Origin: Sphingomonas sp. DG1-23 | Lineage (GTDB): Bacteria > Pseudomonadota > Alphaproteobacteria > Sphingomonadales > Sphingomonadaceae | DNA: 64,000 bases | Reading direction: 5' to 3' | Assembly (NCBI RefSeq): GCF_030730875.1 | Contig: NZ_JAVAMA010000003.1 | Coordinates: 124,001 to 188,000 of the forward strand | Shown: positions 23,190-53,104 of the stretch, piece by piece | Position numbering within the stretch: position 1 is the stretch's first letter | Layout: each line of letters starts with the position of its first letter | Made by a program: the position numbers and the translations under genes | The notes under the pieces: model-generated | Databases searched by the model: none | What the model saw: only the letters and a program-made list of their open reading frames with translations | What the model was told of the DNA's origin: nothing

Positions 23190-23266
23190 TGGCGCGCCCG
23201 GAACGATTCGAACGTCCGACCCTCAGATTCGTAGTCTGATGCTCTATCCAGCTGAGCTACGGGCGC
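23190..23266 (-). tRNA. tRNA-Arg (anticodon ACG)
   Basis: 77-nt cloverleaf read on the minus strand: acceptor GCGCCCG pairs with CGGGCGC, D arm AGCTCAGCTGGATAGAGC, anticodon loop CTACGAA with ACG at 23230-23232, T arm GTTCGAATC, discriminator G and an encoded CCA. Reads CGU/CGC/CGA after A34 deamination to inosine. Confidence 0.97.
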
Positions 23267-29749: not shown

Positions 29750-32701
29750 TTACCCCAGCCGCGCCAGCGCTGCCGCCAGCCGCTCGGCTTCGGCCGCCTT
29801 CTCGGCATGATCGGCACGGGCTTTCTCGACCGCCTCGGGCTTGGCCCGCTCGACGAAGCTCGGATTGCCGAGGCGCCCCGCGAGCCCATCGCGCTCCTTC
29901 TCGGCCGCCGCGATCGCCTTGCTCAGCCGCGTGCGCTCGGCTTCGAGGTCGACCACGCCACCGAGCGGAAGGACGAACGTCGCCTCCTCGACCACCACCT
30001 GCAGCGCACCACCCTCGAACGTCTCTTCCTGTCCGAAATCGACTCGGGCAAGCCGGGCGATGACCTGACGCTGTCTGACGAGCCGGTCGCCCGTTTCGCT
30101 CGATTGATCGCGAACATAAAGCGGCAGGCGCGCAGCCGGCGGCACGTTGAGTTCGGTGCGCGCAGCACGAATTTCGCTCACCAGCCTGATCAGCCAGTCG
30201 ATCTCCCTTGCCGCTTCCGGATCGAGTGCCTGCGCATCCGTCACCGGCCAGTCCGCGACGATGAGCTCGCGCTTGCGCGCACCCATTTTCGACCAGAGTT
30301 CCTCAGTGATGAAGGGCATGAAGGGGTGGAGCATGATCAGGATCTGGTCGAGCACCCATCCCGCAACCTGCCGTGTTTCAATCGCATTCGCGGTGGGTTC
30401 CGCTTTGTCGACGTCCACGTCGAACTGCAGCACCGGCTTGATCAGCTCGAGATACCAGTCGCAGAAGCGGCTCCAGGTGAATTGGTAGATCGTGTTCGCC
30501 GCCTCGTCGAAGCGCAGATCGGCGAGCGCGAGGTCGAGTGCCTGCACCGTCGCGATCGTCTCGGCGATGATCCAGCGATTTACCGCGAGATCGGCTGCGG
30601 GTGCGTGCGGCGTGGTCGATGCCCCGATTCCGTTCGACTGGGCGAAGCGCGCTGCGTTCCACAGCTTGGTCGCAAAGTTGCGATAACCCTCGATCCGGCG
30701 CTCATCCATCTTGATGTCGCGGCCCTGGCTCTCCATCGCCGCCATGAAGAAGCGCAGGGCGTCGGCGCCGTACCGGTCGATCAGCCCGAGCGGATTGACG
30801 ACATTGCCCTTGGACTTGGACATCTTCTGCCCGTCCGCGGCGCGGACCAGACCGTGGAGATAGAGGGTCTTGAACGGCACTTCCTTCATGAAGTGCAGGC
30901 CCTGCATCATCATCCGCGCATCCCAGAAGAACAGGATGTCGAACCCCGAGATCAGCACGTCATTGGGATAGCGGCCGCCCAAAAGTCCTCTCCCCTCCGG
31001 GGAGTGGGTTGGGAGAGGGGCGGTGCCGGCAGCGGGAGCTTCTGCCCCTCTCCCGACCTCGCCTCGGCCACCCTCTCCCCGAAGGGGAGAGGGAATTTCG
31101 TCCGGCCAGCCCATCGTCGCGAATGGCCACAGCGCCGAGGAGAACCAGGTGTCGAGTACGTCGGTATCACGCCAGAGGAATATTCTATCGGCATGCAGAT
31201 CCCGGCTGTCGTTGCTCTCAGCGGCCTCTTGAAAGCTTCCTTCCTCGACGATCATCGTCGGATCGCATCCATATGTTTCAGCCGCCTGACCCTGGATATC
31301 CTCCCAGGTCTCGCCAACGAATATCTCGAATGGAGCGTCCGCCTCGAAATAGCTCAGCCCTGCGCCGCGTTTCGCTGGCCCGAACCACGCCGGAATCCGG
31401 TGCCCCCACCAGAGCTGGCGGCTCACGCACCACGGCTGGATGTTCTCCATCCAGTTGAAATAGGTTTTTTCCCAGCTCTTCGGGACGATCCGGGTCGCGC
31501 CCGAGCGCACCGCCTCGATCGCCGGCTTCGCCAAGGTCGCGGCATCGACATACCATTGGTCGGTCAGCCACGGCTCGATCACTACGTTCGAACGGTCGCC
31601 ATAGGGCGTCTGGATCGTCCGGGGCTCGGAATCATGTTCCGCGCCTTCCTTGTCGACATAAGGCACGAGGAAACCTTCGGCCTTGAGCCGTTCGACCACC
31701 AGTTTGCGCGCCTCGAACCGGTCGAGCCCGAGCAATTCCTCGGGGATCAGCCCGTCGCTGGTCTGGGTGATCCGCGCTTTGGCGTCGAGCATGTTGAGCA
31801 TGTCGCGCGCCTCGATCCCGGCGCGGCGGCCGACCTCGAAATCGTTGAAATCGTGGCCTGGGGTGATCTTGACCGCGCCCGAGCCGAGTTCGGGATCGGC
31901 ATGCTCGTCGGGGATGATCGGGATCAGCCGCCCGGTGATCGGCAGCCGCACTTGTCTGCCGACCAGAGCCGCATAGCGTTCGTCGCCGGGATGCACCGCC
32001 ACCGCCATATCGGCGAGCATCGTCTCGGGCCGCGTCGTCGCGACCTGAATGAACCCGCTATTATCCTCGAGCGGATAGCGCAGATGCCAGAAATTGCCTT
32101 TCACTTCGACCGTCTCGACTTCGAGGTCCGAGATCGCCGTGCCAAGGCCCGGATCCCAGTTCACCAGGCGCTTGTCGCGATAGATGAGGCTCGAACCATC
32201 CGGCTTCCTGGTGTTGTAGAGCTCGACGAACACCTTGAGGACGGCCTTCGAGAACCCCTCGTCCATCGTGAAGCGCTCGTTGGCCCAGTCCATCGAGCAG
32301 CCGAGCCGGCGGAGCTGCTGCGTGATCTCGCCGCCGCTCTCTTCCTTCCACTCCCACACCTTCGCGACGAATTCCTCGCGGGTGAAGTCGGTGCGCTTCT
32401 GCTGCTTCGCGTTGAGCTGACGTTCGACCACCATCTGGGTCGCGATGCCGGCATGATCGGTGCCGACCACCCAGCGCGCATCCTTGCCCTTCAAGCGCGC
32501 GTGGCGGACCAGCACGTCCTGCAGCGTGTTGTCGAGCGCATGGCCGATATGCAGGCTGCCGGTGACGTTGGGCGGCGGATTGACCAAGGTCCACGGATCG
32601 GCTCCCGGCCGCTCGGGGGCGAACAGGCCCTTTTCCTCCCAATGGCTGTACCAGCGGGATTCGATTTCGGCGGGGTCGAAGGTCTTGGGAAGCTCGGTCA
32701 T
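29750..32701 (-). CDS. valS: Valyl-tRNA synthetase with in-frame repeat insertion
   Basis: Charges tRNA-Val. 983 residues: class I signature [18 protein letters not shown] around 45-62, editing domain, [14 protein letters not shown] around 620, anticodon domain and a C-terminal coiled coil ending LAAALARLG. Between GWPDEIP and [11 protein letters not shown], where other ValS proteins have only a few residues, there are about 37 extra residues (536-572) rich in G, R, P and E. These are encoded by a palindromic repeat at 30985-31096 that keeps the frame. Everything else looks intact, so the enzyme is presumably functional. Follows popZ-like and tolC genes in conserved order, with an S9 peptidase between. 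Confidence 0.95.
30985..31096. repeat. Palindromic repeat family C inserted inside valS
   Basis: 112 bases with two hairpins: a left part with CCTCTCCCC and GGGAGAGG arms and a right perfect one, CCCTCTCCCC-GAA-GGGGAGAGGG. The whole is read through in frame by valS. A related intergenic element of similar length is at 52969-53104. Confidence 0.8.
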
Positions 32702-37955: not shown

Positions 37956-38029
37956 GGCCCGATGGCGGAGTGGTGACGCAGAGGACTGCAAATCCTTGCA
38001 CCCGGGTTCGATTCCCGGTCGGGCCTCCA
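37956..38029 (+). tRNA. tRNA-Cys (anticodon GCA)
   Basis: 74-nt cloverleaf: acceptor GGCCCGA pairs with TCGGGCC, anticodon loop CTGCAAA, T arm GGTTCGATTCC, discriminator U and an encoded CCA at 38027-38029. Divergent from pcm across about 165 bases. Confidence 0.96.
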
Positions 38030-52968: not shown

Positions 52969-53104
52969 TCCTTCTCCCCTTGTGGGAGAAGGAAGGGGCC
53001 CGCGCCGAAGGCGTGGGAAGGATGAGGGGGAGTAAGGCGCCAGCCCCCTCACCCTTCCGCCGATTTCATCGGGCTCCCTCCCTCTCCCACAAGGGGAGAG
53101 GGAA
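52969..53104. repeat. Palindromic repeat, family C (intergenic copy)
   Basis: 136 bases. First hairpin CTTCTCCC/GGGAGAAG around a short loop near 52970; second hairpin CCCTCTCCC-ACAA-GGGGAGAGGG near 53085; a purine-rich middle with further pairing. Related in arms to the element inside valS. Lies between convergent halogenase and antiporter genes. Confidence 0.75.

Follow-up and report, generated by a model that had tools for sequence, protein, structure and literature searches.

The window analysed here, the whole 64,000-nt stretch of Sphingomonas sp. DG1-23 DNA, contains a valine--tRNA ligase gene, valS, whose reading frame runs uninterrupted through a DNA palindrome. As valS is an essential gene, the locus raises the question of how a palindromic repeat comes to be part of its coding sequence, and whether it arrived once, in this strain, or belongs to a recurrent occupation of the same site. 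The features concerned are listed with window coordinates.

29750..32701, minus strand: valS, valine--tRNA ligase, 983 aa (NF004349 profile; the single match in the strain's own genome, G000)
30983..31096, minus strand: palindromic insert occupying the loop that follows GWP(D/E), residues about 536-573 (open frame; pLDDT <50 at 535-577)
30987..31009, no strand assigned: left outer arm, itself a small hairpin (inverted-repeat analysis)
31070..31092, no strand assigned: right outer arm, itself a small hairpin (inverted-repeat analysis)
31007..31021, no strand assigned: inner arm, pairing with 31044..31058
31044..31058, no strand assigned: inner arm, pairing with 31007..31021
52969..53104, no strand assigned: intergenic palindromic element of a different family that has an arm motif in common with the valS element (at least 82 own-genome matches)

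The NCBIfam valine--tRNA ligase profile NF004349 matches the valS ORF with 1160.7 bits in two stretches, the best of which stops at residue 535, and it is the palindromic element that breaks the match in two. An earlier note on this DNA had claimed that extra residues follow GWPDEIP without loss of frame, and this is the case: 38 residues (538-575) are inserted, the frame is open throughout, and the linker has 44 residues versus 10 in most empty relatives, a net gain of 34. The note had described the insert as a 112-base double hairpin. Two nested arm pairs are indeed present, the outer an inverted repeat of 23 nt that is 91% complementary, but the arm coordinates give an element of ~106 nt rather than 112, which is no multiple of 3. 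Folded as RNA the element reaches -81.6 kcal/mol (z -6.2), a value equalled by 0 of 200 shuffles, and folded as DNA it has a z of -4.75. By eye, there is a CGTC at 31099-31102, 6 nt beyond the outer arm, which lies within valS codons and not at the base of the stem. The valS element behaves as a protein-coding palindrome, in that the repeat lies within a conserved gene and leaves its frame open, and judged from that frame the insert is probably translated and retained in the cell. Searched with Rfam at the gathering score, the window gave two tRNAs alone and no match to the element. The tRNA genes are at 23193-23266 (minus strand) and 37956-38026 (plus strand). ValS also varies in length between GHRIPAW and DVLDTW (window 31145-31405), a segment of 87 aa here, similarly long in several relatives and ~43 aa in most relatives' loci, which looks non-palindromic and may be an alternative subdomain.

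A genome-wide search with the valS element, proposed as a check in the earlier note, detected related copies both between genes and in hrpB. There are at least 24 matches at E<=1 in the strain's own genome, several of them overlapping (40 of 47 candidates scored), and the best of those listed are in hrpB (contig C16, 49195-49266; 82% over 72 nt), at C13:11637-11746 (74% over the whole element) and at C4:1984-2018. The element at 52969-53104, whose arms had been likened to those of the valS element, does have an arm motif in common with it but is not of the same family; it is absent among the at least 24 listed matches (E<=1) of the valS element and, used as the query, it has at least 82 overlapping matches of its own (40 of 83 candidates scored). 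Places that match both queries are C13:181260 and C12:249347. Based on open frames, a GC3 test and reading, 2 of 32 places examined are inside genes, namely valS and hrpB; the 32 comprise 10 from the valS-element search and the best-scoring 22 of the 52969 family, with four matches of 19-26 nt (L019, L020, L023, L024) left out as probably due to chance. Four open frames at other places (L007, L171, L180, L196) were considered as further genic copies, and their translations were judged by eye to be spurious. The hrpB copy (L002, C16:49181-49266) is an in-frame palindromic insert, and the HrpB product matches TIGR01970 with 870.4 bits over 16-834, the element lying within the match. Copies of one family are therefore present in another gene and between genes. 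A single recent insertion in this strain was considered and rejected, as the best near-full-length match in the genome is only 74% identical and relatives are filled at the same loop.

The extent of that occupation was apparent when valS was compared among relatives, a second check that the note had suggested. An empty-site query located the site in 292 of 295 genus genomes; 84 of these, with E ~1e-71 to 1e-84, were flagged by eye from the E-value table and 208 of the 292 were unflagged, and all six genomes with intermediate E-values that were checked are empty. An insert at the loop is present in 81 of the 84, as a readable site of >60 nt in 78 and as a partial insert in G103, G184 and G239; of the other three, G193 has no insert, the linker of G270 is 16 residues long, and in G162 the site is a stretch of N. 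Fifty-one empty sites were parsed, the unflagged genomes being read in part, with linkers of 10 residues in 44 cases, 9 in five, 8 in one and 16 in one. Filled and empty sites thus both occur; the insert is no constant part of sphingomonad ValS, and this refuting condition of the earlier note does not apply. Insert length is divisible by 3 in 73 of the 78, and 72 of those 73 are stop-free. The exceptions are five out-of-frame inserts (G024, G067, G168, G200, G250) and one with an in-frame TAA (G129), in a genome rated 100% complete. Almost all fold stably, with z<-3 in 74 of 78, and G122 and G275 no better than z -2.

Sequences of this type invite the suspicion of a sequencing or assembly artefact at the hairpin, an objection that the earlier note had itself raised. 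Broken cases do exist (G024, G103, G162, G184, G200), in which there are N runs, a hairpin that has collapsed or a long stretch of C/G, and by eye G024 and G200 look like assembly faults (collapsed hairpin, long C/G run). Nevertheless, with 72 of the 78 genus inserts both in frame and free of stops, in-frame lengths in all 19 filled sites of the named genomes described below, and several families represented in many species, such an artefact is so improbable as a general explanation that the objection can be dismissed.

By translation, the 78 inserts divide into motif classes, designated A to F in this analysis: 33 are A, 14 B, 14 C, 8 D, 5 E, 3 F and one is of another type (U). The motif is PSPLRGEG.. 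in A, PSPSGEG.. in B, PFVxSEVE..STSLxTNG in C and SPSRLREGLGEG.. in D. DNA similarity gives one cluster of 58 (A, B, D and F, which have related arms), one of 14 (C), one of 5 (E) and a single insert. As read, the inserts are composed of 18.7% Gly, 16.0% Pro, 11.4% Ser, 9.1% Ala and 8.9% Glu. Although two or three coding-strand phases are open in 43 of the 72 clean inserts, each class has, as far as its motif reveals, one phase at valS: it is the same in 14/14 B inserts, in 12 of the 13 C inserts that have the motif, the exception (G168) being out of frame, and in 30/33 A inserts, the other three of which match only in the second arm. The A phase at hrpB differs from the A phase at valS. In G088, G108, G147 and G290, the valS inserts are nested or tandem.

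The explanation that we consider likely is that the ValS loop is a permissive landing pad that has been occupied, interrupted and re-occupied by REP-like elements under an in-frame filter. Short palindromic repeat dimers of several families would be dispersed in sphingomonad genomes, in the two genomes examined mostly between genes. The loop, positioned between the FSSALWP helix and the DVLISGFD strand in the catalytic domain, would tolerate extra residues; survivors there would be elements with a length that is a multiple of 3 and a phase without stops, read as a Gly/Pro/Ser/Ala/Glu-rich loop, and later elements would enter or replace earlier occupants. The elements may actively transpose, an old occupant presumably giving way when a new element inserts and the earlier one is then lost, and the insert is presumably neutral for the enzyme. 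On this view, the loop appears to have long served as a landing site for selfish DNA, which becomes protein sequence there.

Turnover of this kind was evaluated on a tree built from the ValS flanks with the insert removed (130 rows, the empty ones biased to the best-scoring genomes; G103 dropped from the change counts). The minimum number of changes is 17 for presence or absence, 49 for all labels and 39 for the labels among the 78 filled sites; with A, B, D and F merged, 33 changes remain (four clusters plus empty), 19 of them among filled sites. Labels differ in 20 of 40 cherries, in one of the 20 only through G103, mislabelled as empty. The sister species G010 and G153 (SH-aLRT 100) have unrelated valS inserts, of class C and D, respectively. 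Their flank windows are 90-99% identical with no dip beside the insert, the nearest 100 nt being 92% and 96% identical. In the 200 kb around valS, of which ~100 kb align with a mean identity of 93.5%, four intergenic elements are of the same family and at the same place in both genomes, two places are filled in G010 only, the valS occupant is swapped, and one common element bears an extra palindrome in G153; this comparison left out G010 145450, G153 1202055 and 1202445 and most single-motif places. The hrpB inserts of these sisters also differ, with C in G010 and A in G153. No target-site duplication was seen in the few empty/filled pairs inspected.

Possibly, but with less probability, there were instead one or a few ancient insertions that were inherited, the occupants then diverging or being overwritten locally, with genomic copies as donors in gene conversion or as templates in template switching; new insertions into empty sites would then have been few. 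Consistent with this, filled sites cluster on the tree (17 presence changes versus 49 for labels, 33 when merged), the G275 insert looks like an A/B chimera, and flanking residues are common to several classes. A left-flanking 'DG' is present at 13 of 78 filled sites (A3 B3 C3 D2 F2) and a right-flanking 'QL' at 37 of 78 (A20 C8 B5 F2 E1 U1), whereas neither occurs at any of the 51 empty sites, so that replacement at an already occupied site is likely for many. However, the C cluster and the A/B/D/F cluster have no detected similarity on which homology-based conversion could act, filled sites are found beside empty sisters (G008/G192, G278/G027, G194/G011), and the start positions within the linker vary by several codons.

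Horizontal exchange of valS segments among species, in place of movement of the elements, is an unlikely route for the spread of the occupants. The F inserts of G199 and G205 are identical at 134 of 138 positions, yet these genomes are apart on the tree, and G018 and G034 have an A insert in common, with upstream identities of 67/33/30% in the nearest three 100-nt windows, both as would be expected from such exchange. In the G010/G153 pair, however, the flanks have no peak of divergence beside the swapped insert, and family C is abundant elsewhere in G010, where it has at least 82 overlapping matches (40 candidates scored).

Dispersed copies are thus present in G010 as in the strain's own genome, and of 39 further family-C places examined in G010, besides valS and hrpB, two are genic, in putA and metH (L289 and L295). 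Both are in frame, and one continuous family match spans the element in each of these genes. A third candidate, L312, was rejected as it has no family match, and other open frames at the G010 places are, by eye, upstream of starts or antisense. The hrpB site behaves like that of valS and would be a second landing pad. In the genus, hrpB is matched in 283 of 295 genomes, in ~131 of them as two separate pieces (counted by hand and by eye). Split hrpB genes were read in 30 genomes, of which 26 parse, with a length divisible by 3; by eye, a palindromic element or apparent remnant is present at 25 of these 26 sites, L277 being without. Short inserts occur in L258, L273, L276 and L281. Of the four that do not parse in this way, L261 adjoins the end of a contig, the open frame of L286 is limited to 397 residues, and those of L269 and L285 extend over 852 and 865 residues, so the hrpB anchor is probably off frame there. 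Five of six unsplit hrpB genes read for comparison have 90-105 nt at the site, and one was mis-anchored. Split hrpB and flagged valS are associated, with 57/80 versus 74/203 (Fisher p 1.6e-7, from hand-read counts uncorrected for kinship).

Occupation of the valS site extends across genera. In an order-wide draw, 285 of 296 genomes match the site query, ~184 of them (hand count) being members of the same family but of other genera; outside the genus the site was read within the window's own family, in 30 genomes flagged by eye. Of these, 27 have long sites, all in frame, two are empty and one did not parse. By sequence, 26 of the 27 long sites, from 17 genera, are palindromic and one (G454) is not; folding gives z<-2 in 24/27 and z<-3 in 19/27, with L203, L212 and L223 no better than z -2. 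Among 80 named GTDB genomes, some of which may be of the same species as genus-survey genomes, all valS sites are in frame and 19 have inserts, including Sphingomonas populi, S. echinoides ATCC 14820, S. albertensis and S. endophytica DSM 101535 and, in other genera, Qipengyuania vulgaris DSM 17792 and Novosphingobium hassiacum DSM 14552.

The inserts could also be retained because they have a function, either as a hairpin in the valS mRNA or as a selected flexible loop that any palindrome could provide, an explanation that we consider improbable. The possibility is raised by the near-universal palindromic character of long inserts (74/78 with z<-3; G454 is not palindromic) and by the sequences of 12 related species in which the same A insert is present. 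There, 1 of 20 third positions in the arms is variable, as are 3/17 in the rest of the insert and 86/200 in downstream valS (Fisher p 5e-4 for arms and 0.04 for the rest, each versus downstream), and at fourfold sites the arms have 1/13 versus 56/100 downstream (p 9e-4), which is unexpected for a neutral passenger of the same age as the gene. The arms do not, however, differ significantly from the rest of the insert in these species, either at third positions (p 0.32) or at all positions (5/60 versus 9/52, p 0.17). First plus second positions differ by ~2.7% in the insert versus 0.4% in downstream valS, which indicates weak constraint on the peptide. The low third-position variability would also be expected if the insert had arisen recently in a common ancestor of the 12 species, and 208 of 292 genus genomes are unflagged. 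In these species, either the nucleotide sequence of the A insert is constrained or the insert is younger than the gene.

A structural model, also suggested in the earlier note, gives a low-confidence loop. The AlphaFold model of ValS (36 sequences; mean pLDDT 76.1, pTM 0.74) has the insert between a helix at 525-530 and a strand at 582-586, with pLDDT <50 from 535 to 577 and 26-27 at residues 541-570. As pLDDT is <50 in some further stretches too (42-50, 77-86 and 516-522 among others), the low values support disorder weakly, and they are in part expected given that the aligned sequences disagree in the columns of the insert. In the nearest solved structure, T. thermophilus ValRS (1gax), the corresponding loop has ~5 residues.

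The elements described here resemble those of the REPIN/RAYT system, in which palindromes likewise form an inverted pair around a spacer and copies are dispersed. They differ in that the strain's own genome has no match to the Y1/RAYT transposase family (PF01797), for which 5 of 14 control genomes were positive, and matches are present in only 33 of 295 genus genomes, six of them among the 84 flagged. Given this rarity, a RAYT is not the general mover, unless it acts rarely, has been lost or is of another family. Tolerance alone may also not explain the concentration in valS and hrpB, since many genes should have tolerant loops and few copies are genic. It is conceivable, although we hold this only tentatively, that a few loops in conserved enzymes (ValS and HrpB in many species; PutA and MetH with one copy each in a single species) are more than tolerant and act as true hot spots, which once occupied attract or exchange elements without a Y1 enzyme, for example by nested insertion or template switching at hairpins, and so supply peptides throughout the family. 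Were this so, they would be hypervariable coding loci and a steady source of new peptide segments for essential enzymes.

Rickettsia palindromic elements (RPE), which have intergenic relatives, are among the closest known systems. The earlier note had inferred an RPE-like, in-frame entry in this lineage, and the intergenic copies, the 51 empty relatives and the hrpB copy support it. A single insertion is not sustained, as the loop was filled repeatedly, by unrelated families, with occupants that differ between sister species. According to the available part of PMC3733652, RPE are in-frame palindromic repeats in ORFs that likely encode functional proteins, and protein-coding palindromes are known, from work cited there, in Rickettsia and Wolbachia. 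Both systems have palindromic repeats in frame inside ORFs, a likeness of behaviour; here, however, several unrelated families occupy one essential-gene loop in many genera, with different occupants in sisters. In the same text, Di Nocera et al. 2013 (PMC3733652) describe intragenic REPs. Those in tRNA synthetases come from X. oryzae and from two sphingomonad relatives, E. litoralis and S. alaskensis, and recB has different REPs near the same site in X. campestris and X. oryzae. The present elements resemble these CGTC/GTAG REPs in being inside ORFs, tRNA synthetases included, although the part of that text available names neither the synthetase nor the site. By eye, the valS insert of G505 and the hrpB inserts of G135 and G229 are CGTC-like.

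Within the open-licence literature, searched by titles and abstract openings, no work on palindromic inserts in ValS was found, and the occupation, exchange and nesting of unrelated palindromic families in one essential-gene loop appear, within that literature, to be new. As close relatives have this one loop of an essential enzyme either empty or differently filled, the ValS site constitutes a natural experiment repeated dozens of times, in which the route from selfish repeat to protein sequence, and the neutrality of the result, can be tested directly. The inserts also account for odd low-complexity segments in sphingomonad ValS and HrpB proteins, and they call for caution, in that assemblies can break at these valS and hrpB hairpins. 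In G103, a second, partial valS match (L119) adjoins valS, with N at the element, and is probably an assembly fault.
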